Under the pieces are notes generated by a model. That model had not been told where the DNA came from and did no database searches. It saw only the letters and a list, made by a program, of their open reading frames with translations. The position numbers and the translations under genes are program-made. DNA of 21,102 bases from a virus: IMG/VR virus record IMGVR_UViG_3300009440_000047, positions 1-21,102 of that record. One strand, given 5' to 3'. Shown piece by piece: positions 190-18,023 of the stretch; the first letter of the stretch is position 1; every line of letters begins with the position of its first letter.

Positions 190-468
190 ATGCCTAAAAA
201 AACTAACACGAAGAAAGACGATGTATTCATTCAAGCCAAAGAAGACTTTGGTGTAAGGCTGGATAGACGGCTAACGCTTGCTCAGCTCGAAGAGCAGATG
301 CAGCAGCTAGCTAAGAACAAAGCAAACCCTCAGCCAGCGCAGAAAGAACTTGTCCCAAAACGGGTTAAAAACGTGATTACCGGCAATGAGTTCGAGTACA
401 ACCCGATATTTAAAAACAACCCCGATTTACAAATAATCGAGTGGGAGACTGACAATGGCGACAACTAA
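190..468 (+). CDS. Small charged hypothetical protein
   Basis: This 92-residue protein is rich in Lys, Asn and Gln. It has a basic N-terminus (MPKKTNTKKDD), a predicted amphipathic helix around residues 28-50 (LAQLEEQMQQLAKNKA) and a C-terminal part containing NVITGNEFEYNPIF. I do not recognise the family. It is the first gene after the capsid terminator and overlaps the adaptor gene by 14 bases, so a virion or head-completion role is possible but unproven. The ribosome binding site is weak (GAG six bases before the ATG). A promoter between the terminator and this gene is not obvious, so read-through from the capsid transcript is likely. Confidence 0.75.
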   Translation: MPKKTNTKKDDVFIQAKEDFGVRLDRRLTLAQLEEQMQQLAKNKANPQPAQKELVPKRVKNVITGNEFEYNPIFKNNPDLQIIEWETDNGDN

Positions 469-1129
469 AGTAAGGGACATATTAGACAGGGCTGGAATTA
501 TCCTTCAGGATAATACGAACGTCCGGTTTCCAAACGACGAGCTTTTAAAGTTTTTTAACGATGCACAAAAAGAAGTTGTACTGCATAGACCTGACGCAAA
601 GATGGTTAACACCTCGTTTGATTGCGTAAGCGGCAGTAAGCAGACTCTTCCAAGTGCTGCGTTACGATTGATTGAGGTAGTGCGAAACGTAGGAGGTCGA
701 GCTGTTACCCAAGTACAGAAGCGCATTCTAGATGAGACGCTTCCTAATTGGCATGAATCGGTAGCAGGCTCGAATAAGATTGAACATTTTATTTACGATC
801 CAGCTGATCCTAAAAATTTTTACGTGTACCCCAAAGGTGCTGTCGGCACACATTCTTTAGAGATTGTTTACAGCTCATCTCCGCCAGAGATTTCAATATC
901 CAATTTTGAAACGGACGTGCAGGTAATTAGCATTGATGATGTCTATTCAAACTGCCTATTGGACTACGTGCTTTACCGTTCGTACCAAAAGGACTCCGAG
1001 TTTGCTGGCAATGCATCGAGGGCAATGATGCACTATCAGAGCTTTGCTAATGCACTAGGTGTTAAGACTCAGGCTGATGTCGCAACTACTCCGATCCCTG
1101 CTTCTGCTGGCTCGGTTGGTGCAGTGTAA
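455..1129 (+). CDS. Phage adaptor / head-to-tail connector protein (DUF6682-like)
   Basis: This 224-residue protein begins with a helical segment and the pattern FPNDELLKFFNDAQKEVVLHRPDA (residues about 26-49), which matches the start of DUF6682-type phage adaptor proteins ('W-D-ELL-YLNDAQ-EI---RPD'). A beta-rich middle follows (FDCVSGSKQTLPSAALRLIEV), then an 'FYVYPK' strand and a C-terminal helical region (CLLDYVLYRSYQKDSEFAGNASRA) that fits the helical pack on the portal. Its place just after the capsid gene is the normal one for an adaptor. A clear GGGAG lies 7 bases before the ATG, inside the preceding gene. The stop codon overlaps the next start (TAATG). The family call is from memory of the pattern, not a search. 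Confidence 0.75.
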   Translation: MATTKVRDILDRAGIILQDNTNVRFPNDELLKFFNDAQKEVVLHRPDAKMVNTSFDCVSGSKQTLPSAALRLIEVVRNVGGRAVTQVQKRILDETLPNWHESVAGSNKIEHFIYDPADPKNFYVYPKGAVGTHSLEIVYSSSPPEISISNFETDVQVISIDDVYSNCLLDYVLYRSYQKDSEFAGNASRAMMHYQSFANALGVKTQADVATTPIPASAGSVGAV

Positions 1130-1752
1130 TGAAATATTCTGACCTAAATGTGTATGTTCGACCCGAAGCACAGGGCGCTCCCGACTTTATAATTGAACGG
1201 GCGATACGCGATTCTGCGATAGATTTTTGCAGTAGGTCAGATATATATATGCCTGAGCCTGAATTTATGACGGTTATTGCGGGTGTTAACGAGTACGCGG
1301 TATCTTTACCGTCTGGCACTGAGTTAAACCACATCATCGATATATTTAGTAACACTACCTCGCTTAAGCCTACTAGTTACAGCGAGTTGTTACAGAGGCT
1401 AGGAGACGAGAGCACCAGAGGTTCTCCTCAGTACTATTCCCAGCGTGACAACACCGACTTTTATTTGGCGCCGATTCCTTCGGCAGCGTCTAGAATCCGC
1501 GTTGTGTATTCGGTTAAACCCACCTCTACCAGTTCAAGCATCCCCGACACAGTTGGCAAAGAGCATAGAGAGTTAATCTCTCACGGTGCTTTGTATCGGC
1601 TCCAGATGATGGGTTCGCAGCCGTGGTCAAACCCAAGTGCTGCCGGAGTTAATAAGCAGTTGTTTGAGCGAAGCGTAGGTCGAGTAATTCGCCAAGTGAA
1701 ATATGGCTTTAGCGGTGGCTCCTTAACCGCCAAATCGAGGGAGTTTATTTAA
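1129..1752 (+). CDS. Phage connector/neck-like structural protein
   Basis: This 207-residue protein starts on the TAATG overlap with the adaptor gene. It resembles its neighbour in layout: an N-terminal helical region (APDFIIERAIRDSAIDFCSRSDI, residues about 16-38), a strand pair around VIAGVNEYAVSLPSGTEL, a 'YLAPIPS--SRIRVVYSVKP' strand pair (residues about 111-131), and a C-terminal helical segment (HRELISHGALYRLQMM). The same order, 'helix, EY-V-LP, FYL-P, helix', in both proteins suggests that the pair are diverged copies of one adaptor-type fold, probably two neck components. No enzymatic motif is visible. The exact role (second adaptor, tail-completion or spike-anchor protein) cannot be decided from sequence. 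Confidence 0.65.
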   Translation: MKYSDLNVYVRPEAQGAPDFIIERAIRDSAIDFCSRSDIYMPEPEFMTVIAGVNEYAVSLPSGTELNHIIDIFSNTTSLKPTSYSELLQRLGDESTRGSPQYYSQRDNTDFYLAPIPSAASRIRVVYSVKPTSTSSSIPDTVGKEHRELISHGALYRLQMMGSQPWSNPSAAGVNKQLFERSVGRVIRQVKYGFSGGSLTAKSREFI

Positions 1753-3132: not shown

Positions 3133-3149
3133 TAGTCTGGAGACATAAC

Positions 3150-3605: not shown

Positions 3606-6600
3606 ATGGCGATTCAGTTCTCGAACCAAGCTAGCACTACGCTGGCTAGCGGCGCCTCCTCTTCGGCAACGTCGCTTAGTGTCACAGGCGCATCTTCATT
3701 CCCTATCCTAGGGGGCGGGGATTATTGTTATGCAACCCTAGGGGCTGGGACGTCTTCAGAGATTGTGAAAGTTACCGGAATATCTGGCACTACATTTACT
3801 GTGATCAGGGGTCAAGATAACACAACCGCTACTAGCCACTTGGCTGGCGCTGATGTTTCATTAAGGGTTACAGCTGGAGCCTTGGAGGATTTAAGGGATG
3901 GCGGTCAGGTTTATACTGCGGGCGCTGGACTTAATTTGTCAGCGAATCAGTTTAGCCTTGCTAACAACTTTGCCACAGACGTAACCTTTTCAGCGGATAT
4001 AATCACAGCGACAGCCGGAACAAGCAACTTCCGTGCAGGCTTTGATGCTGGCACTAATCTCGCAAGCGGTAGTACTGGCAATACCTTCGTTGGTGACAAT
4101 GCGGGTAAAGATACCACGACGGGTGATAACAACGTGGCGGTCGGTAAAGGTGCTTTAGAAAACAACACCACAGCTGTTGCAAATGTGGCTGTAGGCATGG
4201 AGGCTTTACTCCGCAACACTACCGGACAGAGTAACTCTGCAATTGGTTTTCGGACGCTGTCTTCAAACACGACTGGCAGTAATAATATGGGCATTGGTCA
4301 AGCCACTTTACGCTACAGCACAACCGGAAATAACAATTTAGCAATAGGTGTACAATCTCTATTTCGAAATACTACCGGAACTAGCAACGTCGGTCTCGGC
4401 TTGCATGCTCTATACAATAACGTCACTAGCAACTACAACACTGCATCTGGCACCCAAGCCCTGAAATTTACCACCGCCGCTGACAACACGGCTATGGGTG
4501 GTCAAGCGGGAATGGGTGTGACCTCGGGAACTTTGAATTCTTTTTTCGGCAGATCCTCTGGCTCTCTAGTAACTACCGGCAGCAGAAATACAATCTTAGG
4601 TGCCTTTGATGGAAATGAAAACGGCTTAGATATAAGAACGTCTAGCAACAACATTGTCCTTTCGGACGGTGCAGGCAATCCTAGATTAAGCATAAATAGC
4701 AGTGGCGCTGCGACTTTCGCTAGTACCGTCAATGGAAGAGATGTTGCTGCGGACGGTGCAAAGTTAGATGACATAGCTGCTGGCGCAAACAACTACACAC
4801 TACCTTCTGGCTACGCGACTGAAGGATTTGTCAGCAACCAAATCACAGCGCTTGTCGATTCATCTCCCGCAACGCTTAACACACTGAATGAGCTGGCTGC
4901 TGCGCTCGGCGATGACCCTAACTTTGCCACCACAGTAACTAACAATATTGGCACTAAACTCTCTTTAGCTGGCGGTACTGTAACAGGGAATCTCTCTGTA
5001 ACCGGCACAACAACTTCAGGCAAATTAATACTAGGCTCAAACACTGTCGGTACAACTTCGGATATTGCCTTGACGGCGAATGCAGCAATTAATGCCGTAA
5101 ACAGCCTGTCTTTTGGCATGACGGATAATACAGGCAGCTATTTCCGGTGGATGTTTGGCAACACATCAAACACTGGTGGCACCGCTGGCGGTGTTGAAAA
5201 GATGAAGCTCGACCCGTCAGGGAATCTAACATTATCAGGCACAGTAGACGGAGTAGACATTGCCGCTCGTGACGCAGTATTAACTAGCACAAAGACTACT
5301 GCGGATGCCGCACTGGCTAACGACGGAACTAGTACAGGCAATTATTCTACGTCAGGACAGGTCCAATCGGGTAGGGGTTCTGGTGGTGTTGCACTTACTA
5401 TTAACGATGGATACGGTAATGCAAATGTAACATTTAACCACCTAGGCGGAGTCCCTGAGCAAACTGGTAACGCTGCACGAATTGAGTTTAATGCAGATAG
5501 CGCCTCTAATCCTACAATGACTTTTGAGCTAGGCACTGGTACAGCAGGGGCTGCTTTCCAAACTCCTACTATTTTGACTTTAAACTCGACGGGTGCAACT
5601 GTTACTGGAACTTTATCTGCCACAGGCGGCAACTCCACAAATTGGAACACTGCTTACGGATGGGGTGATCACGCCGACTACGGGCTAGGTATTTCTGGTT
5701 TTCTTGAGTACCCAAAGAGCAGCATTGATGACGCTAGTTGTCCGGCTGGGTCTTACAGAGCAATAAACACTAATCCCTCGAGCGGCACAAGACCTGCGGG
5801 TTTAAGCTTGTACGGATATATACAAGTGTACTCGTATGCCTCCACCGAGAAGATGCAGGTGTTTACTGATGTCAACGGCGACTCTGCCACAAGGCTATTA
5901 AAGTCAGGGGGCAATACGGCTTGGAAGTATCGCTATAACTCGCAAGGTCGAAGCGCTCCGAGTAATGATGCAGATGATGCTATTGAAGGCGGGATGTATA
6001 GAGTAACGAGTACTACTTCTAATACACCGTTATCAGCAACAGGTACTATTACGGTCTCACGTTCTTACGGCGTAGTTTCACAGGTCTGGACTAACGGCAC
6101 TACTTTCCAGTTTCGACGTTCTACTGACACAGGTGCTACTTACAATGCTTGGAAAGAGTTTCTTCACGATGGGAACTTTGATCCGGCGGATTACCTACCC
6201 TTAACTGGTGGGTCTCTGACTGGAGCCTTGAAGCTTGGCGGTCAGATAATGAACTCTGCCGCAACTCTACAGGTAAATGGCTTCCAGCGCACAGGTAGTA
6301 TCTTTCTACACGAAGGCGGAACTAGTCCAACAACAGTAAATAAAGAACTCCAGAATGGTAGCGGTTATCTTAAGTGGGACAATTATCAGGTGTGGACTTC
6401 GGAGCATATGGACTCCCCTAGTTCTTACGGACTAAACACTACCTCCGCACCTTACATTACAGACCTTACAGTATCTCTAGTTAGTGGGTTTTACAGAGGT
6501 AGAGGTGACTTAATTACAGGGTCACCAGATGCCTGGGCGTATAACGCCACGATTCAAGTGATGGGGAGTTCGGCTCTTCACGCTTACGGGATGGTCTTCA

Positions 6601-9062
6601 TATACACAAGATCCTCTCCCAGCCAACCTAAAATCTGGTTCGGTATTCGTGCAGGGGCAACAGGGACAATTACGTGGAAAGAAATAGCTCAGGCTGCTAA
6701 ATACCTGCCTTTAACTGGCGGTACGATGACGGGTCAGCTGAACGTACAACATTCAGGTACGGATAGTATAAATCTAAGGAAGACCGCAGATACAAGCTAC
6801 AACGGCTTAACATGGTCGGATGCAGCGGGGGCAAGTCGTTGGTTACTCTACCAGACAAATAACGCGCAAGGGGATTTATCCCTCCAAGGGCGGAGAGCGA
6901 ACGGTGCTTACCAGCATACAACGTTTGTCATAAACAATAACACTGGTGTAGTGGATTTCAGAATTCAACCTACGCTTAACGGAAGTGCGCTACTCTCAGC
7001 CGCAACTGTGCCGTCCTTACGGAATCAGACAGATGTACCCTCTACTACTTGGAACAATCATCCTGAAGTCATTAATGTCTACGACAATGCCCTTCTAGGT
7101 TCTGAAGGTGGTTTTAAGACAAGCTGGGTTTGGAATGGCTACCGTAATAACGCTGGTGGGTTTACCTACAGAGGCGTGAACAGCAACACGACTACTGCTT
7201 CTAACCTTGAGCATGATTCTAGTGGGCTATATTGGAGAGCAGGGGTTGCTTCAGGGACTACTCTGCCTCTTAAGTTTTCCGTCGCTAGTGACGGAGATAT
7301 GACACTTACTGGCGGTATCACTGCTGGTGGAGACTCAACAATCACAGGTGACCTAACTGTACAGAATACAGATGGTCTGCTAACGATAAGAGACAACACC
7401 AACGGAGGCGCCAATGCTGCTTACAAACTAGCTTTTGATGATGCCTCTAATGTAGAGCGTGGCTCAATCAGTTCTGTTCTAGGGAGTGACACACTTTTAG
7501 TAGACTCGCTTGGGTCAGTTGCTCTAAGGTACGCTGGAGTCGATAAGATTACTACTAATGCTAGTGGGGCTTCCATTCTCGGTAATGTTGACGCTGATAT
7601 CTATACAGGAGATGCGTACAAGACGGCTAACTCCATCCTTGGTAACAACTATATAAACAATGGGGCGGGTACAGCAAACCACATTACTTGGGATAATGGT
7701 GCTGCTGTTAATCTGTACTACAACGGGGTTAACAAACTACAAACCACGAGTATAGGGACAACCGCTTACGGTAGTAGCAGAGCCACGGATGGCGCTACGG
7801 CTTCCTACATAGACTTCGCTGGTCTGTACACTAACAGATCACTGTCGTATATCAGGAACACCCATGCTACTGGTAGCTTCTACGTTAATGCTAACAACTC
7901 AATCCGGTTTAGAACTATTGCGGGTCTTGATACTCTGGTGCTCACCATGGCGACTCAGAAGGCTACCTTCTACGGCGACGTGGATGTTGCTGGTGATATC
8001 AAAGAAGACGGAACGCTCCTAAGTGCTAAGTATGCCCGATTGGGTTCAGCTAATAACTATAGCAACACCAGCGGTCTTCAACGTTTTAACACTCAGGCTT
8101 CGTCACTAATCGAAGGTACTAGCTCCGTGAGTCATGGGTTGGAGGTTCTTGCTCAAGCAGGATCAGATGCTTTCATGCAGTTCCACATATCAGGGGACTA
8201 CGCTGTAAAGTTTGGTCTTGACGGCTCTACTAATAAGCTGGCTGTTGGCGGTTGGTCAATGGGTGCTAATGCTTACGCTATTTACCACGAAGGTAACAAG
8301 CCAGCACTGGATGACCTTACGGGAACTGCTGCGGACTCTGCCTTGCTTGGCGGTGTAAGCCCATCAGTAAGTGACGTTGTAAGCACTATAGTGAAGCGTG
8401 GAACTACTGGTGATGTACATACTCGGCTGTTCAGGAGCACCCATGGAAATGCCAGCTCTGTTACTGCTGGCGCAGCCATAATGATGCGTGTGAACAATTC
8501 AACCGACAACTATCTCAGACCCATCACACAAGCAGGGTTTCGTGCAGAAGTGACAGACGGTGTTTATGAGCCTGTCAACACCATCCCAACTTCAGGTGAT
8601 TGGTGGAGTGGTGGCTATTCTAAAGTGAATACAGACGGTACTCACGAAATCGGTAAGTACATTGATTTCCACTCCACTTCCTCAACTACTGCTGATAACA
8701 CTTATCGGATGACGAATACTGCTAGCGGGCAGATGTCCTTCAGCGGCAGTCTAACCGCCGCAGGTAACATTACAGCTTACTCTGATGAACGCCTTAAGAA
8801 AGGCATCGAGACCATTCCTAATGCTCTCGATAAAGTATCTCAACTGAAAGGTGTCACGTTCACGGATATAGCAACTGAAGAGAAGCGTACTGGTCTGATA
8901 GCTCAAGATGTGCAGAGGGTATTACCTGAAGCCGTTATGCAGCCTGAAGGACAGGAGCATCTCGCAATAGCCTACGGGAACACTGTGGGTCTCTTAGTAG
9001 AAGCTATCAAAGAACTTAAAGCTGAAGTAGATGAACTCAAATCGCAATTGGAGAATAAATAA
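3606..9062 (+). CDS. Giant tail fibre with S74 intramolecular chaperone
   Basis: This 1818-residue protein is the main adhesin candidate. Domains in order: an N-terminal tail-binding region (1-155); seven head-like repeats 'IG--AL--NTTG--N-A' (179-296), part of a trimeric beta-roll region; 'LAGGTVTGNLSV' (about 452); three knob-like domains resembling pyocin-knob units (about 705-785, 785-858 and 932-1033), the last two followed by fibre hinge motifs YLPLTGGSLTG (863) and YLPLTGGTMTG (1033); then beta-rich shaft and tip (1040-1720). The C-terminus is a Peptidase_S74 domain starting at YSDERLKKGIE, with Ser1726 and Lys1731 as the expected catalytic dyad, an 'IAQDVQRVLPEAV' segment and a final coiled coil (KELKAEVDELKSQL). 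In this family the chaperone trimerises the fibre and cleaves itself off just before the Ser, here releasing about 93 residues. AGGAG lies 6 bases before the ATG. Confidence 0.9.
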   Translation: MAIQFSNQASTTLASGASSSATSLSVTGASSFPILGGGDYCYATLGAGTSSEIVKVTGISGTTFTVIRGQDNTTATSHLAGADVSLRVTAGALEDLRDGGQVYTAGAGLNLSANQFSLANNFATDVTFSADIITATAGTSNFRAGFDAGTNLASGSTGNTFVGDNAGKDTTTGDNNVAVGKGALENNTTAVANVAVGMEALLRNTTGQSNSAIGFRTLSSNTTGSNNMGIGQATLRYSTTGNNNLAIGVQSLFRNTTGTSNVGLGLHALYNNVTSNYNTASGTQALKFTTAADNTAMGGQAGMGVTSGTLNSFFGRSSGSLVTTGSRNTILGAFDGNENGLDIRTSSNNIVLSDGAGNPRLSINSSGAATFASTVNGRDVAADGAKLDDIAAGANNYTLPSGYATEGFVSNQITALVDSSPATLNTLNELAAALGDDPNFATTVTNNIGTKLSLAGGTVTGNLSVTGTTTSGKLILGSNTVGTTSDIALTANAAINAVNSLSFGMTDNTGSYFRWMFGNTSNTGGTAGGVEKMKLDPSGNLTLSGTVDGVDIAARDAVLTSTKTTADAALANDGTSTGNYSTSGQVQSGRGSGGVALTINDGYGNANVTFNHLGGVPEQTGNAARIEFNADSASNPTMTFELGTGTAGAAFQTPTILTLNSTGATVTGTLSATGGNSTNWNTAYGWGDHADYGLGISGFLEYPKSSIDDASCPAGSYRAINTNPSSGTRPAGLSLYGYIQVYSYASTEKMQVFTDVNGDSATRLLKSGGNTAWKYRYNSQGRSAPSNDADDAIEGGMYRVTSTTSNTPLSATGTITVSRSYGVVSQVWTNGTTFQFRRSTDTGATYNAWKEFLHDGNFDPADYLPLTGGSLTGALKLGGQIMNSAATLQVNGFQRTGSIFLHEGGTSPTTVNKELQNGSGYLKWDNYQVWTSEHMDSPSSYGLNTTSAPYITDLTVSLVSGFYRGRGDLITGSPDAWAYNATIQVMGSSALHAYGMVFIYTRSSPSQPKIWFGIRAGATGTITWKEIAQAAKYLPLTGGTMTGQLNVQHSGTDSINLRKTADTSYNGLTWSDAAGASRWLLYQTNNAQGDLSLQGRRANGAYQHTTFVINNNTGVVDFRIQPTLNGSALLSAATVPSLRNQTDVPSTTWNNHPEVINVYDNALLGSEGGFKTSWVWNGYRNNAGGFTYRGVNSNTTTASNLEHDSSGLYWRAGVASGTTLPLKFSVASDGDMTLTGGITAGGDSTITGDLTVQNTDGLLTIRDNTNGGANAAYKLAFDDASNVERGSISSVLGSDTLLVDSLGSVALRYAGVDKITTNASGASILGNVDADIYTGDAYKTANSILGNNYINNGAGTANHITWDNGAAVNLYYNGVNKLQTTSIGTTAYGSSRATDGATASYIDFAGLYTNRSLSYIRNTHATGSFYVNANNSIRFRTIAGLDTLVLTMATQKATFYGDVDVAGDIKEDGTLLSAKYARLGSANNYSNTSGLQRFNTQASSLIEGTSSVSHGLEVLAQAGSDAFMQFHISGDYAVKFGLDGSTNKLAVGGWSMGANAYAIYHEGNKPALDDLTGTAADSALLGGVSPSVSDVVSTIVKRGTTGDVHTRLFRSTHGNASSVTAGAAIMMRVNNSTDNYLRPITQAGFRAEVTDGVYEPVNTIPTSGDWWSGGYSKVNTDGTHEIGKYIDFHSTSSTTADNTYRMTNTASGQMSFSGSLTAAGNITAYSDERLKKGIETIPNALDKVSQLKGVTFTDIATEEKRTGLIAQDVQRVLPEAVMQPEGQEHLAIAYGNTVGLLVEAIKELKAEVDELKSQLENK
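4140..4493 (+). repeat. 17-residue head-type repeats in the tail fibre
   Basis: Six consecutive 17-residue units and a seventh of 16 (fibre residues 179-296) share the pattern (V/I/L)G--(A/T/S)L--N(T/V)T(G/S)--N-(A/G). The first starts VGKGALENNTT and the sixth LGLHALYNNVT. They are repeated at protein level and well diverged at DNA level. The pattern resembles the head repeats of trimeric adhesins, and a beta-roll trimer is the likely fold. Confidence 0.8.
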
Positions 9063-9388: not shown

Positions 9389-9389
9389 C

Positions 9390-9830
9390 ATGGCATTACA
9401 AACATCGGGGGCTATTAGTTTTTCACAGATTCAGGCTGAGTTTGGAGGGTCCAATCCCATCAGCTTGTCGGAGTATTACCGAGGCGGCACCCATGTACCT
9501 ACTACTGTTGGCGGTGCTGCTGGTGCTTGGTCAGCATACTATGGTAACACCTCTTCTTATTACTGGGAGGTTGAGCTTAATCAGGTCATCAGGTGGGGCA
9601 ACGTAAACGTATACACCGGAGTCGGAACCTCAGACATATTTACAGTAGGCGGGTACGACTATCAAAAGGGTACGCTTTATGCGTCAGTTGCCGGAGGGAA
9701 GTATGATCCTACTACTTACTACTACAGGCTTCGGCGGCGAACTACATCGACTAGTGTAACGGTTAATACTGGTATTCCGTCTAGTGGTACAGTTGATATG
9801 GCTGACTTCTATGGAGGAAGAAACACATGA
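9390..9830 (+). CDS. Small tail protein with 'ALQTSGAIS' N-terminus
   Basis: The protein has 146 residues using the ATG at 9390. The frame extends upstream to 9342, but that part lies inside the preceding gene, and MALQTSGAISFSQIQ is the usual start of this protein group. The N-terminal motif 'SGAISFSQIQAEFGGSNPISLSEYYRGG' (residues about 6-33) recurs in shortened form at the C-terminus as 'SSGTVDMADFYGG'. Between them lies a Tyr-, Gly- and Thr-rich beta segment. Proteins with this start are found next to fibre genes in many environmental phages and are taken to be tail or fibre-tip components, but no function is established. GGAGG near the end of the gene serves the next ORF. Confidence 0.65.
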   Translation: MALQTSGAISFSQIQAEFGGSNPISLSEYYRGGTHVPTTVGGAAGAWSAYYGNTSSYYWEVELNQVIRWGNVNVYTGVGTSDIFTVGGYDYQKGTLYASVAGGKYDPTTYYYRLRRRTTSTSVTVNTGIPSSGTVDMADFYGGRNT

Positions 9831-10369
9831 TTACGGTGACTGAGTGCAATGAACTACCTGAAAGTTTTGACTCCCTCTTCGATCAATCCCTTGAGTATCT
9901 GGATCGCGAAACCACACTTGACTGGAGGTACATGGGCAACCCTAGGGATGCCGCAGCCAAGAAGGAGAAGGTTCGCGAGATTTACCAAGATCATATCGAT
10001 GCTAGTGAATCCCTTGTTGTGTGCTGGGAAAAGGATGGAGTAACAATTCACATTGGCGCCGGATCAATAAAACCTAAAGATGACAAGTACATTCAATGGA
10101 ACTATGGGCTTTTTGGTAAGGATGCTACAGGTAGCAAGAGCTTTCTTCATGAACCCGAGTACGTCAGAAAAACTGCTGAATTCGTTCGCAACACTTTAGG
10201 GATGGATGGTTACTCAGTCAGCTGCCAGAAAGGAGGCAGCATTTATGACTACCACTTTTCAAGGGCAAATGATTTTGAAGGTTTCGAGAGGTCTGGAGTA
10301 ACTTACACCAATCCAGACATCGCGCCCGAGGTCACCCTAGCTATCATAAGATATAGGTATCTGGATTAG
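9827..10369 (+). CDS. Hypothetical protein, possible acetyltransferase-like fold
   Basis: This 180-residue protein starts on an ATGA overlap, with GGAGG nine bases before the ATG. I do not recognise it with confidence. It is acidic and beta/alpha in character. A helix with acidic residues (EVREIYQDHIDAS-like, about 48-63) is followed by strands (SLVVCWEKDGVTIHIGAGSI and KYIQWNYGLFG), a helix (YVRKTAEFVRNTLG), a strand (GYSVSCQ) and 'GSIYDYHFSRANDFEGFERSG'. The order of strands, then a helix, then a loop of the type '---Y-----FEGFERSGV', recalls the second half of a GNAT fold, but the acetyl-CoA loop (Q/R-x-x-G-x-G/A) is not present. It may be a fibre-associated protein with a decayed or unrelated fold. 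Confidence 0.6.
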   Translation: MITVTECNELPESFDSLFDQSLEYLDRETTLDWRYMGNPRDAAAKKEKVREIYQDHIDASESLVVCWEKDGVTIHIGAGSIKPKDDKYIQWNYGLFGKDATGSKSFLHEPEYVRKTAEFVRNTLGMDGYSVSCQKGGSIYDYHFSRANDFEGFERSGVTYTNPDIAPEVTLAIIRYRYLD

Positions 10370-10392
10370 CTATACAAGGTTAAGGAAAAATT

Positions 10393-10638
10393 ATGAATGT
10401 ACGCACAGCAGAAGAACGCGAGCAAGATTTTACAGCGATGGGTCACAGCGTTGAGCTTATATTCAATGTTATCTCCGGCGACGCAATGGCGGGCGAGGTC
10501 GGATTAGAGCGACAGTCGTGCGTAGATCGAAACACTGAGCATCTTAAGCTAATGGTTGCGCTTACGGACTGGGACAACGAAGACATGACAGCTTGTAATT
10601 TGGCAATAACTGCGGGCAACGGCTACACCGCGTCTTAA
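10393..10638 (+). CDS. Small hypothetical protein
   Basis: This 81-residue soluble acidic protein has a good ribosome binding site (AAGGAAA, 6-7 bases before the ATG). It is largely helical: 'FTAMGHSVELIFNVISGDA', then 'CVDRNTEHLKLMVALTDWDNEDMTACNLAITAGNGY'. The ending 'DRN--HL-LM-----W--EDM------AI-AG--Y' is a recurring pattern in short phage proteins of unknown function, often in tail or lysis regions. No membrane segment or catalytic motif is seen. It stands 24 bases after the previous gene and 19 before the holin-like gene, so it could belong to a small lysis-linked cluster, but nothing proves this. Confidence 0.65.
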   Translation: MNVRTAEEREQDFTAMGHSVELIFNVISGDAMAGEVGLERQSCVDRNTEHLKLMVALTDWDNEDMTACNLAITAGNGYTAS

Positions 10639-10657
10639 TTTATAACTAGAGGTATAC

Positions 10658-11020
10658 ATGGGAATTCTAGCGACACTACTAGGCAGCGGAGATGTCCTGA
10701 GCAAAGGTCTTGATCTTATAGATGGCATGCACACTTCCGACGTAGAGGCGATTGAGGCAAAAACAAAAGCCAAGACTGACCTGCTTAGCAGTTACGCTCC
10801 ATTTAAAGTAGCGCAGCGGTACTTGGCTTTGATTTTTGGCTTTACCTTTGTCTTGTCGTACCTAATGGTGCTTTCCTTGTTCTTCATGGGCAAGGAGATC
10901 AGCGCTGTTCAGGAGCTTATAACAGCGTTCAAGATTGATTGGATAATGCTGACCATCATCGCTTTTTATTTTGGCGGAGGCGCTTTCGAGGGCGTCATGA
11001 ATAAGAAGGAAAAGAAGTAA
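10658..11020 (+). CDS. Holin-like membrane protein (GTA_holin_3TM-like)
   Basis: This 120-residue protein has an amphipathic N-terminal region (MGILATLLGSGDVLSKGLDLID), a charged stretch (AIEAKTKAKTDLLSSY), then two clear membrane segments at about residues 54-78 (LALIFGFTFVLSYLMVLSLFF) and 93-113 (WIMLTIIAFYFGGGAFEG), and a short Lys-rich tail (MNKKEKK). This layout fits the GTA_holin_3TM group, which opens the inner membrane at lysis. The N-terminal helix may be the third, weaker segment. AGAGGT lies about 6 bases before the ATG. No endolysin is next to it. It could instead be a small virion membrane protein. The stop overlaps the next start (TAATG). Confidence 0.65.
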   Translation: MGILATLLGSGDVLSKGLDLIDGMHTSDVEAIEAKTKAKTDLLSSYAPFKVAQRYLALIFGFTFVLSYLMVLSLFFMGKEISAVQELITAFKIDWIMLTIIAFYFGGGAFEGVMNKKEKK

Positions 11021-12669
11021 TGACAGGCTTTAAGTTACAAACATTTAGCGGGCAAGCCCCTAAAGTGTATGCCAGACTACTGCCCGACGATATGGCGCAG
11101 GTTGCCACTAATTGCAGGCTTGACTCCGGTCGCTTGGAACCTTGGAAAAGTAACTCGCCTAGCTCGATAAACTTTGCTACTGGGGCTATCTCATCTGCAA
11201 CTAAGAGCATATACAAGCACAGCTCATCTGTATGGATCGCGAGTAACTCAGAGCTTGATATCGTTAGGTCGCCCATCGCTGAAGACCCTCACGAAAGAAT
11301 TTATCTGACAGGGTTTAGCGGCTCAGCTGGGTTTCCGCAAATGACTACTGCTCAAATAGTAGGCAATAGCACGTACTACCGACTGGGCATACCTAAGCCT
11401 GAAGATCTAACATCAGTAACCTTATCCCCATCGACCTCTGCAAACATTGATACCGAGGTTCCGCAGGCAAGATCATACATTTTTACATACGTGTCTTACT
11501 ACGGAGAAGAAGGAGTTAACTGCGACGCGGAAGCCGCTCAGGTTGTGACTGTTCATACGGATCAATCGGTCACTTTAGACTTTCCTCCCAACCCGTCTGG
11601 CAACTATAACCTTCTAAAGAAGCGCGTATATAGGACAGATGCAGGAGGGACATACAGATTTGTTGGTGATGTCGCAATTGCAACAGATACCTTTACCGAC
11701 AATGTTTTGGATGTAGCTCTTGGCGAAGAGATTCCAACATCTACGTTTGATGCGCCAGCCGACGATACAGCCGCCGATCATCCCGAGGGACCAATGCTGG
11801 GCTTAGTCTCTATGCCCAACGGAATCCTTGCTGGGTTCGCTGGTCAGACAGTCTTTTTCAGCGAGGCATTTCAACCTCACGCCTACCCTGACGAATACAA
11901 GCTAACAGTTAAGTCTGACATCGTTGCTCTCGCCCCGCTTAACACTGGTCTCTTAGTACTAACTAAAGAAAAGCCAGCAATCATTCAAGGTCTCGATCCA
12001 TCGTCAATGAGCATGATGGAAGTGGACAGTTCTTTATCTTGCGTGTCTAAGCGATCCGTCGTTGATATGGGTGAGTTTGTTATTTACTCATCCCCTGACG
12101 GTTTGGTTATGGCGAATGAAAGTGGCTTGAATTTGATTACAGACCAGACCTTTACCAGAGATCAGTGGCAAGAATACACACCGTCATCGGTGGTTGGGTT
12201 TCATTGGGAGGGGCACTACGTTGCTTTCTACAACAACGGAACTGAAAGCAAAGGTTTTATCTTTGATCCTAGGGGTGGAAAAAACTCATTCGTCAAACTG
12301 GACTTTCATGCAACGGCAGGCTTTAACGATCTAGAGTCAGACAGTCTTTACTTAGTTGTAAGTGGATCTCTGGTAGTTTTCGCGGAGGGCACGTCTAACG
12401 AAAGTTTTACTTGGCGGGGAAAGAAATTCTACAACCCCAGACCAATCAACCCTGCTGTTGCTAAAGTAGAGTGTGACAGCTACAGCCCCAACCCGACATT
12501 TAAGCTATATGCGGATGGGCAGCTTAAGCACACGCAGACTGTCACCAGCAGTAACGCCTTTAGATTACCGAGCGGGTACAAGGCTAATGAGTTCGAGATA
12601 GAGTTAAGCGGAGCTGTGCCCGTTAATGAAGTGTGTGTTTATGAAAGCGCGGAGGAGATAGGTGTTTAA
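11020..12669 (+). CDS. Tail nozzle-like structural protein
   Basis: This 549-residue protein opens with 'FSGQAPKVYARLLPDDMAQVATNCRLDSGRLEPWKS', the 'A--A-N----SG-L-P' type of start seen in tail tube B/nozzle proteins and related tail proteins of short-tailed phages. It then has many beta strands with the spacing of a propeller (for example 'LLVLTKEKPAIIQG', 'CVSKRSVVDMGEFVIYSSPDGLVMA', 'WEGHYVAFYNNG', 'GFIFDPRGG') and ends in a small beta domain (KVECDSYSPNPTFKLYADGQLK). T7 gp12 and P22 gp10 have comparable propeller cores, but this protein is shorter than gp12. It starts on TAATG after the holin-like gene, with AAGGAAAAG upstream. The nozzle role is an inference from layout and position before the tip fibre. 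Confidence 0.55.
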   Translation: MTGFKLQTFSGQAPKVYARLLPDDMAQVATNCRLDSGRLEPWKSNSPSSINFATGAISSATKSIYKHSSSVWIASNSELDIVRSPIAEDPHERIYLTGFSGSAGFPQMTTAQIVGNSTYYRLGIPKPEDLTSVTLSPSTSANIDTEVPQARSYIFTYVSYYGEEGVNCDAEAAQVVTVHTDQSVTLDFPPNPSGNYNLLKKRVYRTDAGGTYRFVGDVAIATDTFTDNVLDVALGEEIPTSTFDAPADDTAADHPEGPMLGLVSMPNGILAGFAGQTVFFSEAFQPHAYPDEYKLTVKSDIVALAPLNTGLLVLTKEKPAIIQGLDPSSMSMMEVDSSLSCVSKRSVVDMGEFVIYSSPDGLVMANESGLNLITDQTFTRDQWQEYTPSSVVGFHWEGHYVAFYNNGTESKGFIFDPRGGKNSFVKLDFHATAGFNDLESDSLYLVVSGSLVVFAEGTSNESFTWRGKKFYNPRPINPAVAKVECDSYSPNPTFKLYADGQLKHTQTVTSSNAFRLPSGYKANEFEIELSGAVPVNEVCVYESAEEIGV

Positions 12670-15600
12670 ATCAACGAAAAAAGGAAACATGCCTGTCCCA
12701 CAGAAGTGGTCAGGACAAGATCGCAGATTTGGTGAGACGCTTAAGAATAGCGTTGATGTTCTGGCTGGATTTAATGGCAATCCTTTAGATAGGGCTATCA
12801 CTGCTAGGGACTTACTTGACAGCGGTATTGCAAGACTCGCAGTTGGTTCGATTACCTTCTCTGGCGGATCTAACGGTCTGGCTCCAACAGGCAATATCCC
12901 AACGTATGATGTCCCGCCTGCTCCTACCAACTTATCGGCTCGCGGCGCATTTCAAAACATTATTCTTACATGGAACTTAGAGTCATACATAGGTCACTCT
13001 TATGTGGAAGTGTACAGGCATACGTCAGACGTGATTGCTGACGCCAGCTTGACCGCGCAAGTAAGTGGGGCGATTGTAGGTATATACAGCGACTCCACCG
13101 GACCAAGCGCTGACTTTTACTATTGGGTCAGAGCCGTTAATGAAAACGGTGTAGCTGGACCGTTCAACTCCTCAACAGGGACTAGGGGTCAAACAGCTGC
13201 CGATGTAGACCTCCTACTTGGTGTGTTAACAGATGCAATAACTGAAAGTGAGTTAGCGACTGATCTCCAAACAGAAATCGATAAGATCTCTGGAGACATC
13301 TATGTTGCTGGATCTGTTGCCTCTCAAGTTGCTGCTGAAGCCATTTTGCGAGCCGCAGCGGTCAGTGGTGAAGCCACTGCTAGAGCTGCAGCACTTAGCG
13401 CTGAGGCTTCGGCTAGAGCTACAGCCATCTCGAGTTCTGCCGACGCGCTTCAAGCGCAGCTTAATGACTTTACAGGTATAGCTGCGTGGGACAGCGCTGA
13501 GTCTTACAGTATCGACGATAAGGTACGGCACGATGACAAACTGTGGTCAGCAGATGCAGCGAGCAGTGACTCTGAACCTACCTATAGTAATGGTGCTAGT
13601 ACCAATAGCGACTGGGAACTTACTGGTGACTATACAAGTCTAGCCTCTGTCACTGCTAATAACAGCGCGGCGATTACAGCAATTAATAACGTGTCAACCG
13701 ATAGCTCTTCTGCTGCTGCCGTTGCCTTTAAAGCCCTCAGCGGTGAAGTCTTTGCGGCTGATGGCACATCACTGTTAGCTACAGGGTCCGCCCTGACAGG
13801 CTTAACGACAGATGTTCGTGACATATACACTGCTGCTGATGGTGACGATCCAGCATCAGGTTTGCTAGCTTCCGCTCAAGCCTCGATTACAGGTCTCAAT
13901 GGAGAAGTGTTTGCAGCTGACGGCTCGTCACTCTTGGCAACAGGATCTGCCCTGACAGGCTTAACGACTGACGTTAGAAGCATTTACACGGTAGGAGATG
14001 ACACGGTAGATCCGGTTGTACCTGCATCAGGTATTTTGGCTTCGGTACAGTCAGACGTTACAACTCTCAACGGTGAAGTATTTAATGAAGACGGTTCGTC
14101 TTTACTGGCTACTGGCTCAGCAGTTACTGGTCTTACGACTGATGTTCGTTACATATACACTGCTGCGGACGGGGATACAGCTGCCTCCGGTATATTGGCT
14201 TCAGTGCAATCTGACGTTACGACCCTCAACGGTCAAGTGTTTGCGGCTGACGGTTCGTCGTTGCTCGCGACGGGTTCAGCTGTATCCGGCTTAACTACAG
14301 ATGTTCGTGACATATACACCGCAGCAGATGGTAATACGCCAGCTTCAGGAATATTGTCTTCAGTTCAATCAGACGTTACGGATCTTAATGGCGAAGTGTT
14401 TGATGAAGATGGAGCGTCTTTGCTAGCAACCGGATCAGCTGTCAGCGGATTGACTACAGATGTTCGTGATATCTATACAGAAGCTGACGGTGATAACCCT
14501 GCATCTGGAATATTGGCGTCAGTTCAGTCAGATGTAACCGACCTAAATGCCGAAGTCTTTGCAGCTAATGGGGCGTCCTTGCTAGCAACCGGACAATCCG
14601 TCACCAGCCTTACAAACAATGTCAATACAATTTACGATGCTGACGGTGGCGTAGACGATGATGGAAACGCAATTCCTTCTGGGCTAGTTGCTTCTTCTCA
14701 AGAGGAAATAACAGCGTTGAAAGGCGCAGTATTTAATGGCGATGGCGATGTAAAGCTAGCGTCAGGATCATCTGTTTCCACTCTGACTAACAACGTGAAT
14801 GCAATTTATGATGCCGACGGTGGTCTAGATGGCGATGGAAACGCAATCCCATCAGGTCTTTTAACTTCCGCGCAATCCTCGATTACCGCCCTACAGGGTG
14901 CAGTATTTGATGAAGATAATGGAGTCAAACTGGCTGAGGCGGCGGCTGTAGAGACTCTAGAGACTGAGGTCTACGGTGACGGATCTGCTGGAGCGTCAAG
15001 AATCGATGGTTTGTACACGGCTTTGTTCGATGATGAAGGGGACTTGTTTGCCTCCGCATCAGCGCTGGAGGCTCTAGACACCGCTGTTACGGGTGAAGGA
15101 GGTATTGCATCGAAGGTCACTAACATTGCTGCGGCTATGTATACAGATAGTGACACGACAGGCTCTTCGCTATTTGCTACGTCAGCCAATTTAGACACTG
15201 TCACGGCGCAAGTATTTCCTGACGGGTTAACTGAAACCTCTCGAATATCTCAGCTGTCATCGGCGCTATACACAAACGGCAATCCAGATGACGGCGTTAA
15301 GCTAGCCTCTGCTGATTTTGTATCCAATATAAACACAGCAGTATTTGGTGACGGCACTACGCAAACAGCATCAGCAAACAAGGTAGATACGCTTCAGGTC
15401 GTCGTCGAGGGCGCTGATGGTAATGGCGGAATAAAAAACGCTATAGAGACTACTCAAGAAATTGTTGGCGATTCTACATCTGGTCTGCAAGCTCAGTACA
15501 CCGTCAAAATCGACACCAACGGAGCAGTTGCAGGCTTCGGGTTAGCAAGCACCTCAAATGCTGCGGGGAATATTACTTCTGAGTTTATCGTAAATGCAGA

Positions 15601-15976
15601 CCGCTTTGCCATTATGAGAGGTGGCAGTAACGCCGCAGCAGCAACAATACCTTTCGCTGTAGTCCCTGCGGGAACGGTTGATGGAGTAAATATTCCTGCC
15701 GGTGTCTTTATGACGGATGCGTTTATTAGAAACGGGACAATCGTTAACGCCAAGATTAAGAACCTCGCCATCGATGACGCGAAAATTGCGAGCCTTAACG
15801 CAGACAAAATAACCGCTGGGACTATAGACGCAAGCAAGGTGACGCTGTCCGGTGTGTCGCCTTCGTTTCAGATCAAGAGCGCAACTACCGGACAGCGCAT
15901 GGAAATGGACGCCGATGTTATTAGGGTCTTCGACTCAGGCAATGTACTTAGAGTTAAGCTAGGGAATCTATCGTAA
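12662..15976 (+). CDS. gpJ-type tail tip fibre (FN3, CBM-like, repeats, DUF1983-like)
   Basis: The protein has 1104 residues from a GTG at 12662 with GGAGG six bases upstream (8-base overlap with the previous gene). An ATG at 12689 behind AAAGGAAA is the alternative. Domains: N-terminal anchor (1-83); fibronectin type III (about 84-178: 'PPAPTNLSARGAFQNIILTW' to 'YYWVRAVNENGVAGPF'); Ala-rich helix (about 215-265); a CBM5/12-like module (273-323, with Trp276, Trp294 and Trp318 in the 'AW----SY--DDKV---DKLW-A---------W-L' pattern); about eight tandem repeats (from about 360 to 760); diverged repeats to 930; and a DUF1983-like domain (about 940-1000, 'AQYTVKID-NG-VAGFGLAST'). The end ('DAFIRNGTIVNAKIKNLAIDDAKIASLNADKITAGTID') is typical of lambda gpJ-type host-specificity proteins. 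The large N-terminal hub of gpJ is absent. Confidence 0.85.
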   Translation: MFKSTKKGNMPVPQKWSGQDRRFGETLKNSVDVLAGFNGNPLDRAITARDLLDSGIARLAVGSITFSGGSNGLAPTGNIPTYDVPPAPTNLSARGAFQNIILTWNLESYIGHSYVEVYRHTSDVIADASLTAQVSGAIVGIYSDSTGPSADFYYWVRAVNENGVAGPFNSSTGTRGQTAADVDLLLGVLTDAITESELATDLQTEIDKISGDIYVAGSVASQVAAEAILRAAAVSGEATARAAALSAEASARATAISSSADALQAQLNDFTGIAAWDSAESYSIDDKVRHDDKLWSADAASSDSEPTYSNGASTNSDWELTGDYTSLASVTANNSAAITAINNVSTDSSSAAAVAFKALSGEVFAADGTSLLATGSALTGLTTDVRDIYTAADGDDPASGLLASAQASITGLNGEVFAADGSSLLATGSALTGLTTDVRSIYTVGDDTVDPVVPASGILASVQSDVTTLNGEVFNEDGSSLLATGSAVTGLTTDVRYIYTAADGDTAASGILASVQSDVTTLNGQVFAADGSSLLATGSAVSGLTTDVRDIYTAADGNTPASGILSSVQSDVTDLNGEVFDEDGASLLATGSAVSGLTTDVRDIYTEADGDNPASGILASVQSDVTDLNAEVFAANGASLLATGQSVTSLTNNVNTIYDADGGVDDDGNAIPSGLVASSQEEITALKGAVFNGDGDVKLASGSSVSTLTNNVNAIYDADGGLDGDGNAIPSGLLTSAQSSITALQGAVFDEDNGVKLAEAAAVETLETEVYGDGSAGASRIDGLYTALFDDEGDLFASASALEALDTAVTGEGGIASKVTNIAAAMYTDSDTTGSSLFATSANLDTVTAQVFPDGLTETSRISQLSSALYTNGNPDDGVKLASADFVSNINTAVFGDGTTQTASANKVDTLQVVVEGADGNGGIKNAIETTQEIVGDSTSGLQAQYTVKIDTNGAVAGFGLASTSNAAGNITSEFIVNADRFAIMRGGSNAAAATIPFAVVPAGTVDGVNIPAGVFMTDAFIRNGTIVNAKIKNLAIDDAKIASLNADKITAGTIDASKVTLSGVSPSFQIKSATTGQRMEMDADVIRVFDSGNVLRVKLGNLS
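13742..14955 (+). repeat. Tandem 53-58-residue repeats in the gpJ-type fibre
   Basis: GEVF-like motifs start at 13742, 13901, 14072, 14231, 14390, 14549, 14723 and 14897. The spacings are 159, 171, 159, 159, 159, 174 and 174 bases, or 53, 57, 53, 53, 53, 58 and 58 residues. The consensus unit runs 'GEVF--DGSSLLATGSAVSG', then 'LTTDVRDIYTAADGD-PASG', then 'ILASVQSDVT-LN'. The units differ at many synonymous sites, so they are old or under selection at protein level. They form a probable trimeric coiled-coil or beta shaft. Confidence 0.9.
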
Positions 15977-16257
15977 TGGCATACGGCTTAAAAGTCTGGG
16001 ATGCAAATGGGAATGTCAGGCTGGACATTGGCGATAGGGAGTGTAGGTTTGTAGCCTTTTACACCGGCACTGTCGCCGCTGGAGCTACTATTACTATTCC
16101 TGTTGCGGGACTGTCAACAGACGGGACGTGGGGCTTAAATGAGCTACAGTTTGCAAATTATTACATTTCTTTTTCTGTACTTTCCGGCGCGTTCCGCCTG
16201 ACAAATTCGAGTAGTTATCAAAGCCATCAATACAAGGTTCAGGTGTTTAGAATATGA
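15976..16257 (+). CDS. Small tail tip protein
   Basis: This 93-residue protein starts on the TAATG overlap with the fibre gene. It opens with 'MAYGLKVWDANGNVRLDIGDRECRF', a beta hairpin motif found at the start of small proteins encoded after gpJ-type genes. A compact beta domain follows (FYTGTVAAGATITIPVAGLS, FANYYISFSVLSGAFRLT, YKVQVFRI). There is no signal peptide or membrane segment. The motif also resembles the last residues of the gpJ-type fibre (IRVFDSGNVLRVKLGNL). It is probably a cap or tip protein that binds the end of that fibre; its biochemical role is unknown. The stop overlaps the next ATG (ATGA). Confidence 0.65.
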   Translation: MAYGLKVWDANGNVRLDIGDRECRFVAFYTGTVAAGATITIPVAGLSTDGTWGLNELQFANYYISFSVLSGAFRLTNSSSYQSHQYKVQVFRI

Positions 16258-16955
16258 GCTACGGAATCAGCGTCTCAAGTTCTGGTGGATTTATGCAAAT
16301 AGACGGTACATACGAAAACCTCGCCGTCTTTGCAAGCGGGACAGCTACAGCAAATGTAGGGAATGTTTATTCACCTGTTGCATTCCCCGCTAACACTCCG
16401 GCGGACTACCTTATTTTTGCAAAGCCATCGATTGAATCAGGAGATAGTTCGGTTTGGTTTTCGGAGTGGACCGAGAACTCGTCATATCCCTCTTTCATTT
16501 TCGGCTTGTCCCGTGAGTCGTTAAGCAGTATAGCTGTTGACTGGATAATAGCTATTAGGACATCGGCGGCGCCCGCTGCCAATAGTTCAGGCTATGGCTT
16601 AGAAGTAAATAAGGCTAACGGAGATCAGGCTTTTAATTCTGAAAATGGAAATTTCAGATGCCAGCAAGTGTCGTTTGAAGATCTTAATAGTCTTCAAGAA
16701 ACTTCCAATAGTATTTTTTCAGTATCCAGTATGTCTGGAGTTTACGCCCTTATGAGCGGCAAAGGCTTTTTGGGAAGATTGCAATTTGCTGCGGCACCTG
16801 CTGTTTTAGCAACGGTTATCGCCTGTTCAAGGTGGAATTATGCGGATAACACTATTCGTACACGGGTAGCATCACAAGTGATTATTGCAAATCAAGGTGG
16901 CTTTACCTCTATTGGGGGCGGATTTAGAACGAATTTAATAGGAACTTTCGGATGA
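16254..16955 (+). CDS. Tail tip protein with two YG-V motif domains
   Basis: This 233-residue beta-rich protein begins with the same kind of motif as its neighbour (MSYGISVSSSGGFMQIDGTYENLAVFASG). It carries a second copy at residue 114 (YGLEVNKANGDQAFNSENGNFRC), so it seems to hold two related domains. The first domain contains 'NTPADYLIFAKPS' and Trp-rich strands (VWFSEWTENSSYPSF). The second contains 'SSMSGVYALMSGKGFLG' and a C-terminal strand region ending in a Gly-rich segment (GGFTSIGGGFRTN). No known enzyme motif is present. It lies between the small tip protein and the chaperone-like gene, with 4-base overlaps on both sides, so its translation is probably coupled to theirs and it likely sits at the tail tip. 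Confidence 0.65.
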   Translation: MSYGISVSSSGGFMQIDGTYENLAVFASGTATANVGNVYSPVAFPANTPADYLIFAKPSIESGDSSVWFSEWTENSSYPSFIFGLSRESLSSIAVDWIIAIRTSAAPAANSSGYGLEVNKANGDQAFNSENGNFRCQQVSFEDLNSLQETSNSIFSVSSMSGVYALMSGKGFLGRLQFAAAPAVLATVIACSRWNYADNTIRTRVASQVIIANQGGFTSIGGGFRTNLIGTFG

Positions 16956-17413
16956 TAAAAGTAGCAATGGTAAATACTAACGGTGAAGTTGCTTATACGA
17001 TAAGCCCTGCTGTTGATGACATGTACGTCGATGGGCAGACTTATCATGGCTGTGTGGCTAGGCATATAGGCTACGAATCTGATGATCAGGATGTTCTTGC
17101 GACTTGGGTTTGGAGTGATGGTTGGCAGACACGGGATTCGCAGCCCTCTGCATATCATCAGTGGCTGGAATCCGCATGGATATTTAGTGCTTCTTTGTTC
17201 TGGGAAGGTGTAAGAGTTAGTAGAGATATCAAACTATCAACTTGCGATTGTACGCAAATGCCTGACAGCGCCTTATCAGACTCTAAGAGGGCGGAGTGGA
17301 CAGTGTATAGGCAGGCTTTGCGAGATATCCCTCAACAGTTCTCCGGCGTTTCGGATGAAGACTTAGTTAGCTCTTACGAGAATGAAAGCTTGTTCCCCGC
17401 AGAGCCAGAATAG
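16952..17413 (+). CDS. Tail assembly chaperone-like protein (Phage_tail_APC type)
   Basis: The protein has 153 residues. The C-terminal third carries the typical motif 'LSTCDCTQMPDSALSDSKRAEWTVYRQALRDIP' (about 97-129). It corresponds to the '---DWTQLPDSPLS--KR--WA-YRQALRDIP' pattern of Phage_tail_APC proteins, which assist tail or fibre assembly. The usual first residue pair DW is CDCT here, so the Trp is replaced by Cys. The N-terminal part is beta-rich and has two Trp-containing segments (TWVWSDGWQTRDSQPSAYHQWLESAW). Starting on an ATGA overlap, it closes the tip cluster that begins with the gpJ-type fibre; it is probably the assembly helper for that fibre. Confidence 0.8.
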   Translation: MIKVAMVNTNGEVAYTISPAVDDMYVDGQTYHGCVARHIGYESDDQDVLATWVWSDGWQTRDSQPSAYHQWLESAWIFSASLFWEGVRVSRDIKLSTCDCTQMPDSALSDSKRAEWTVYRQALRDIPQQFSGVSDEDLVSSYENESLFPAEPE

Positions 17414-17558
17414 GCGCAGTTTCTTAGTAATTCACTTGATTTTAAAGTATCATAAGGGTATGCGGGACTCCGACCCTTCGGAACATCTCTCCCCGAATCA
17501 GCTCCTCGTTAACCAACGAATATAGCTTAAAAAACCAAACTACTTAAAGGCAGTGTCT
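17414..17558 (+). other. Non-coding gap with two small hairpins
   Basis: This is the longest gap between genes after the capsid terminator (145 bases). It contains two short perfect hairpins: TCCGA/TCGGA with loop CCCT (17469-17482) and TCGTT/AACGA with loop AACC (17506-17519). Neither has a following T run, so they are not simple terminators. A weak promoter-like pair can be drawn (TTGATT at about 17443, TATGCG about 17 bases on), but it is poor. AAAGG at 17546-17550 is the ribosome binding site of the next gene. A start or processing site for the ejection-protein transcript is possible. Confidence 0.35.
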
Positions 17559-18023
17559 ATGGCAATTGTCGTGCGTCATCCGTCGCTAGAAGACTATGCG
17601 GTTATTAATACTCTTGGCAAATGGTTCCAAGAAAACAGCAACTTCAAGAACTGCGGATGGTCCGACGGAAAGGTTTACGGCTTAGTTAAATCAGCTGTAG
17701 ATCCTGTGTCAAACACTCTGATATTGATTGCAGAAGATGAAGGTGAGGTCATTGGGTTTTTTATTGGGCGGGTCGTTGAGTACTTCTTCTCAGACGAAAA
17801 GATCGCAGAAGACTTAGTGATGGTATTTAAGCCCGACCGCAGAGACGGTATAGGCAGCACGGTCAGCGCGATGATTCTTGGCTTTAAACTCTGGGCGATC
17901 AGAAAAGGAGCCAACGAAGTCAGTGTAGGGATCACCTCGGGCATAGCTGGTGATGGCTATAAAAAGTTACTGGAACGCCACGGCTTTAATGAAGCTGGGG
18001 TTTTATTAAAAAGCGAGGTTTAG
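17559..18023 (+). CDS. GNAT-family acetyltransferase-like protein, gp13-like position
   Basis: The protein has 154 residues from the ATG at 17559, which has AAAGG 8 bases upstream; the in-frame GTG at 17553 is too close to that site. The layout fits a GNAT fold: an N-terminal strand and helix (VVRHPSLEDYAVINTLGKWF), strands 'TLILIAEDEGEVIGFFIGRVVE', 'EDLVMVFKPDRRDGIGSTVSAMI' with the acetyl-CoA loop R-R-D-G-I-G-S, a helix, and 'GYKKLLERHGFNEAGVLLK'. In T7, gene 13, a short GNAT-like protein needed for virion assembly, sits just before gene 14. The same order here suggests a morphogenesis role, though real acetyltransferase activity remains possible since the cofactor loop looks intact. Confidence 0.75.
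   Translation: MAIVVRHPSLEDYAVINTLGKWFQENSNFKNCGWSDGKVYGLVKSAVDPVSNTLILIAEDEGEVIGFFIGRVVEYFFSDEKIAEDLVMVFKPDRRDGIGSTVSAMILGFKLWAIRKGANEVSVGITSGIAGDGYKKLLERHGFNEAGVLLKSEV

Follow-up and report, generated by a model that had tools for sequence, protein, structure and literature searches.

How does a phage that otherwise looks short-tailed come to carry a gpJ-type fibre lacking the gpJ hub, and what might hold such a fibre at one end and tip it at the other? The question is raised by a gene in a 21.1 kb IMG/VR sequence (the window, by which we mean the whole stretch analysed), an incomplete fragment of a phage genome. A preliminary description had suggested that the distal half of a long-tailed phage tip was moved onto a short-tail nozzle, with an 83-residue N-terminus as the new anchor. 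Our analysis supports this reading, tracing both a stand-alone form of the anchor and a siphovirus-like tip; a contact between anchor and nozzle is what we infer from it.

Phage type and layout of the window

Gene order in the window runs from two SU10-type adaptors through a side-fibre block, the nozzle, the fibre, three small genes and a GNAT acetyltransferase to probable virion or ejection genes. A head-to-tail adaptor of the SU10-adaptor family (455..1129, + strand; PF24175, E 1.3e-32) and a second protein of that family (1129..1752, +; PF24175, E 1.4e-16; phrog_437, virion structural protein) precede a long side fibre of 1818 aa (3606..9062, +), which matches several tail-fibre PHROGs, ends in an S74 intramolecular chaperone (PF13884, E 1.8e-14) and is the probable first-contact adhesin. 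The 549-aa tail nozzle protein (11020..12669, +) matches phrog_511 (E 2e-146) and PDB 8jov_A (6 chains; E 8e-76), which we take to be a tail component of Ralstonia podophage GP4. Nozzle homologues occur in Lessievirus JC1, LASTA, Itty13 and others, with about 170 phage records below 60% identity. The GNAT acetyltransferase at the end of the fibre locus (17553..18023, +; phrog_1249) likewise comes after the nozzle, or after the stub gene described below, in JC1, LASTA, Itty13, DC1, CSP3, Pavtok, Skulduggery and many related phages.

The source is a short-tailed marine phage with a nozzle. Nozzle and adaptor genes are present, and family searches of the window found neither a tape measure nor a tail tube, as the preliminary description had stated. 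The same was seen in G001, a complete 53 kb relative (ends overlapping inside one gene; nozzle 87% identical to that of the window), where no tape-measure or tail-tube family appeared among the 10 structural-region proteins searched or in a PF10145 scan, the small ORFs at 26-41 kb lying mostly outside the PHROG search. The family matches lend no support to an earlier label of T7-like ejection genes, being only to unknown-function or general virion families, but the position of these genes is that of the ejection genes of Bcep22-like podophages. Given that the window is an incomplete fragment, one might picture a long-tailed phage whose hub, tube and tape measure lie beyond its 21 kb, but the nozzle and SU10-type adaptors, the G001 searches and the nozzle homologues in podoviruses confirmed by TEM, among them JC1, reported as a C1 podovirus whose tail measures 20 nm (PMC9144972), leave this with very little probability. 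A long-tailed phage with a hidden hub was rejected on the G001 searches, within the coverage given above, and on residues 1-83 of the fibre, which match none of the gpJ proteins compared.

Elsewhere in the nozzle lineage, Aeromonas phage phiARM81mr (L002:16170-17803) carries, shortly before the nozzle, a 23S rRNA intervening-sequence-type gene beside a retron-type reverse transcriptase, a pair that looks like a diversity-generating retroelement. The side-fibre region of G001 (L020:10597-13008, - strand) encodes an 803-aa protein made up almost entirely of Thr/Ser-rich repeats (TSRGTSHATTTSY...), for which a PHROG search gave no match. In the window itself, positions 9342-9830 encode a protein with the pattern GAISFSQIQAEFGG...SSGTVDMADFYGG, presumably one seen in marine phage fibres, and with a weak phrog_30374 match.

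A gpJ-type fibre and its probable N-terminal anchor

The fibre gene (12662-15976, +; 1104 aa) begins at a GTG that overlaps the nozzle stop by 8 bases. Its C-terminus, previously described as DUF1983-like and of gpJ type, indeed carries a Phage_Tail_Tip domain at residues 928-1061 (15443..15844, +; PF09327, E 6.8e-12), a bacteriophage tail tip fibre family that we take to be the former DUF1983. Further upstream lies a shaft at residues about 363-800 (13748..15060, +), built of 8 units of 53-58 aa (VFxxDGxSLLATGS...) at spacings of 53, 57, 53, 53, 53, 58 and 58. The last 80 residues (15737..15976, +), with the final strand IRVFDSGNVLRVKLGN, are 44% identical to the siphovirus gpJ end in L030.

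The distal FN3 block and Phage_Tail_Tip domain of the gpJ / central tail fibre family are present, and its N-terminal hub domains are absent. The proposal that the hub is missing and that a fibronectin domain starts near residue 84 is borne out by two comparisons. In the alignment to the family profile phrog_31 ('central tail fiber J'), the first fibre residue included is 83, which falls at position 966 of the 1565 in the profile. Residues 84-215, an FN3-like domain with a helix (12911..13306, +), match as a profile gpJ of SSU5, BcepGomr, AMA2, JWX, IME347 and G010 (E 6e-7 to 1e-23), in each case after 580-900 residues that make up the hub and adjoining domains (positions 582-1005), and also match gp56 of Pseudomonas phage DEV at 42-153; the profile of residues 1-83 found no match, hub included, in the same gpJ proteins (best i-E 0.54). 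Because residues 84-215 match gpJ while residues 1-83 match none, we place the graft point near residue 84, the block beyond it being gpJ-derived by its profile matches. A Pfam search of the fibre gave no FN3 match, and the FN3 call is made on homology to a gene annotated FN3 and to J proteins. The family match to lambda gpJ accordingly runs from the FN3 block on, whereas the hub is absent and the receptor-binding domain, fused in lambda, is probably separately encoded in the window phage.

The first 83 residues (12662..12910, +) form a putative nozzle-type anchor with a conserved helix and the motif VDVLxGxxG...AxTxRDL. In close relatives the anchor is retained (68-90% identical, with nozzles 81-90% identical) and the tips differ. 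Moreover, in ten other phages with the same nozzle, the slot that follows it holds, instead of a fibre gene, a small gene of 59-303 aa (LASTA gp06, JC1 gp62, DC1 gp62, CSP3, POI1126 gp22, PBC5 gp18, Atu_ph08, Itty13 gp08, Pavtok gp22 and Skulduggery gp23). In an hhalign comparison, the motif common to these stubs, ExLxVLxGxRG...AVRxxDL, falls on the core of the fibre anchor with P 7.6e-7, whereas none of 80 column-shuffled controls went below 0.14. Since the anchor core exists as a separate post-nozzle protein in ten phages, an existing nozzle-linked protein appears to have become the fibre anchor, and we infer that the fibre arose by fusion of gpJ-derived sequence to this small protein. By mass spectrometry, a stub homologue is reported in BcepIL02 virions and, in the same account, not in those of Bcep22 or JC1 (PMC9144972). 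A PDB sequence search with the stand-alone stub found no relative, and an AF2 monomer of the anchor with the FN3 block was poor (pLDDT 51).

Tip genes downstream of the fibre and their exchange

Downstream of the fibre lie a 93-aa small tip adaptor resembling DEV gp55 (15976..16257, +; 55% identical to L030), a 233-aa protein resembling DEV gp54 (16254..16955, +; 47-49% identical to L030) and a Tfa-like tail fibre assembly chaperone (16952..17413, +; phrog_4912, E 1.4e-12; 54-57% identical to L030), with ATG overlaps joining the fibre to the 93-aa gene at 15976 and the 93-aa to the 233-aa gene at 16254. The first 29 residues of the 93-aa protein match proteins encoded beside Drexlerviridae gpJ. 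We compared the ends of these proteins by hhalign profile-profile alignment with column-shuffled controls, using profiles built on 9-16 sequences. The terminal 17 residues of the fibre (IRVFDSGNVLRVKLGNL) align in register with the start of the 93-aa protein (LKVWDANGNVRLDIGDR) at P 9.8e-5, against 0.019 for the best shuffled control, giving the small protein one N-terminal YG box. Residues 1-34 of the 93-aa family in turn match both the first half (P 1.6e-5, lowest shuffled 0.07) and the second half (P 3.9e-5, lowest shuffled 0.22) of the 233-aa family, which thus has two YG-box domains; matched against each other, its two boxes give a weak signal (P 0.0079, lowest shuffled 0.19), and a full-length direct comparison of the two halves found no homology. 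An AF2 model of the 233-aa protein (pTM 0.72) has two beta modules; in front of each lies a stretch of low confidence (residues 1-21 and 108-131), and these stretches are the boxes.

The same count was seen among held-out neighbours of gpJ, where 7/7 pairs carry a single box in the small protein and two in the large one, the second near residue 100; internal boxes reached p <= 0.003 in 6/7, JWX being weak. As 3/7 of these pairs are relatives of the training phage IME347, 4 are independent. The recurrence of the last fibre strand once in the small and twice in the large tip protein suggests, at the level of sequence, a pseudo-threefold cap, and the count of 1 + 2 agrees with the 3:1:1 stoichiometry of DEV's AF3 model. 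At L015:6604-7281, L018:5099-5767 and L042:5645-6607, proteins of the 93-aa type are extended at the N-terminus by about 125-220 residues, so the plain 1 + 2 count may not hold everywhere.

The receptor-binding parts are probably these two small genes, the 233-aa protein being the probable receptor-binding protein. Its model has viral fold matches in gpJ-bearing phages; a Foldseek search against the PDB returned no significant match, and a PDB sequence search found no relative of either protein. A competing interpretation, in which the two genes encode host-membrane or superinfection-exclusion proteins and the fibre's own C-terminus binds the receptor, draws on homologues that databases label, for instance, 'outer membrane protein' (phrog_557) and on the exclusion proteins expected, according to the BASEL study, beside Drexlerviridae gpJ (PMC8594841). 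We consider it improbable: the sequences of both proteins, read by eye, have no evident signal peptide or transmembrane segment; both share the terminal strand of the fibre; relatives without the gene pair carry a fused C-terminal domain in its place; and the DEV counterparts are reported to be essential, with gp54 found in particles and setting the receptor (PMC12892993).

That replacement divides close relatives (nozzles 81-90% identical) into two tip classes. The first comprises the window, L015, L018 and L039; here the final strand of the fibre is the one that ends siphoviral gpJ, and gp55-like, gp54-like and Tfa-like genes come next. In the second (L006-L010 and L012-L014) the fibre runs on into its own C-terminal domain and the gene pair is missing. 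A comparable alternative has been described for Drexlerviridae, with either a separate RBP locus or, in TolC phages, a C-terminal gpJ extension (PMC8594841).

For the 93-aa, 233-aa and Tfa-like proteins of the window, the closest relatives lie in L030-L032. The contig of L032, 32 kb long, encodes a tape measure (phrog_9483, 4e-53), a major tail protein, a distal tail protein and a gpJ matching phrog_31 over nearly the whole protein, and a search of it with the window nozzle gave no match. Global identities of the three proteins to this siphovirus are 55, 49 and 57%, respectively, against 30-35, 28-29 and 42-44% to the nozzle relatives L015, L038 and L039, despite the nozzles of L015 and L039 being 82% identical to that of the window. 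The tip cassette being closer to a siphovirus than to nozzle relatives, we conclude that the tip was exchanged across tail types; the same comparison supports a long-tail (lambda-type) origin of the outer part of the fibre. Side-fibre genes are also common to the siphovirus (window 3129-3596, encoding a 155-aa protein, and 3606-9062, versus L030:7079-7528 and 7545-10670), with 47% identity for the 155-aa protein and about 39% for parts of the 1818-aa fibre, so that exchange went beyond the central tip. Near the side fibre, a small protein of 81/82 aa (RTAEExxQDxxAMGxSxELI...) is found both in the podovirus window (10393-10638) and on a siphovirus contig (L068:8577-8825, - strand).

Proposed tip assembly and known counterparts

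A hubless gpJ-type fibre on a short-tailed phage is of a kind already known from DEV, Traversvirus and Littlefixvirus. DEV, of the Schitoviridae, is reported to have a receptor-binding fibre of gp56, gp55 and gp54, modelled by AF3 as 3:1:1, in which gp54 binds LptD; an LptD mutant is reported to become infectable again through mutations in gp54, and loss of gp56 to cause DNA leakage (PMC12892993). Like DEV, the window combines a hubless gpJ-like fibre on a podovirus, whose FN3-like block follows a short N-terminal part, with the same terminal strand and gene order, the next two genes (about 99 and 223 aa in DEV) having overlapping starts and being related to gp55 and gp54. Unlike the window fibre, that of DEV has 429 aa, an unrelated short N-terminus and no array of 53-58-aa repeats, and DEV is described as having a tail tube (gp75) and a separate plug (gp74).

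The computational analysis shows where the domains begin and end, that the anchor also occurs as a gene of its own, that a siphovirus has the cassette too, that fused tips occur as an alternative, and how many boxes each tip protein has. We propose a chimeric receptor-binding fibre of a short-tailed phage, composed of a nozzle-type anchor, a hubless distal part of gpJ and a pseudo-threefold cap, and we hold this model as a whole to be quite probable. A small nozzle-linked protein, still separate in sister phages, would supply the N-terminal anchor, and from residue 84 the chain continues as the distal portion of a central fibre of gpJ type. Three fibre chains would form the shaft and a presumably trimeric C-terminal rung, which the 93-aa and 233-aa proteins would cap; since the former has one box and the latter two, one copy of each would place three boxes on three chains. 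The beta modules would then be displayed as a receptor-binding head, and a cap made of 1 + 2 rung copies would let the trimer accept one asymmetric adhesin, coupling a threefold fibre to a single adhesin. Contact with the receptor, presumably an outer-membrane protein, may loosen the tail closure and release the ejection proteins and DNA, as proposed for DEV.

The fibre could instead sit in the axis of the nozzle as its needle or plug, the arrangement described for SU10, and not be held at the side for receptor binding in the manner of DEV. Fibre residues 894-1102, the last 80 included, match a protein of the SU10 virion, 7z4b_EA ('putative tail tip fiber protein', 3 chains; E 3.4e-8), which is probably the tail needle gp18, reported as a trimer on a podophage nozzle with a beta-prism C-terminus (PMC9509320); the fibre gene also directly follows the nozzle, and a separate plug gene was not identified. 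However, this match covers the C-terminus of the window fibre only, and fibres of relatives, at 588-2028 aa, far exceed the SU10 protein, described as 322 aa long with a P22-like coiled-coil shaft. DEV gp56, in the same operon order, is moreover reported to lie beside the tail tube and contact the separate plug gp74 (PMC12892993). We regard a needle as possible but the less favoured arrangement, and retain the laterally held receptor-binding fibre.

Traversvirus tv24B and Littlefixvirus 98PfluR60PP are likewise short-tailed, with a gpJ-like spike followed by Ig-like and 'hand-like' proteins (PMC12309495). They are distant in sequence, the comparison with Traversvirus drawing on the paper and on match-table rows, in which short-tailed Stx-phage records of the tv24B type have nozzle and anchor in common with the window at about 30-34% identity. 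Three Ig-like and one hand-like protein are modelled there (PMC12309495), whereas the box count of the window points to single copies of both. Drexlerviridae and other small siphoviruses are long-tailed and have a gpJ with hub, but share the small and large gene pair with 1 + 2 boxes (IME347, NBD2, KL3), in an RBP locus downstream of gpJ or with a C-terminal gpJ extension instead (PMC8594841). We lean, by a small degree, towards a wider reading, in which separate tips downstream of gpJ-type fibres, in long- and short-tailed phages alike, would be pseudo-trimeric caps derived from the last beta-rung of the fibre in 1 + 2 copies, and the cassette would be able to travel between the hubs of gpJ and the nozzles of short tails; on the latter, a small protein once separate and linked to the nozzle would have become the fibre anchor.

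In the portions of the literature on such fibres that were available, we found no mention of an anchor that occurs on its own, of a match between the cassette and a siphovirus, or of a rule of 1 + 2 boxes. The chimeric fibre is here traced to both its parents across the divide between long and short tails. The 1 + 2 YG boxes offer a sequence rule for spotting separate receptor-binding genes left hypothetical in databases, and would explain through stoichiometry the need for both downstream genes. Together, the relatives show how the parts of the fibre were joined and suggest how its three-part tip may be built.
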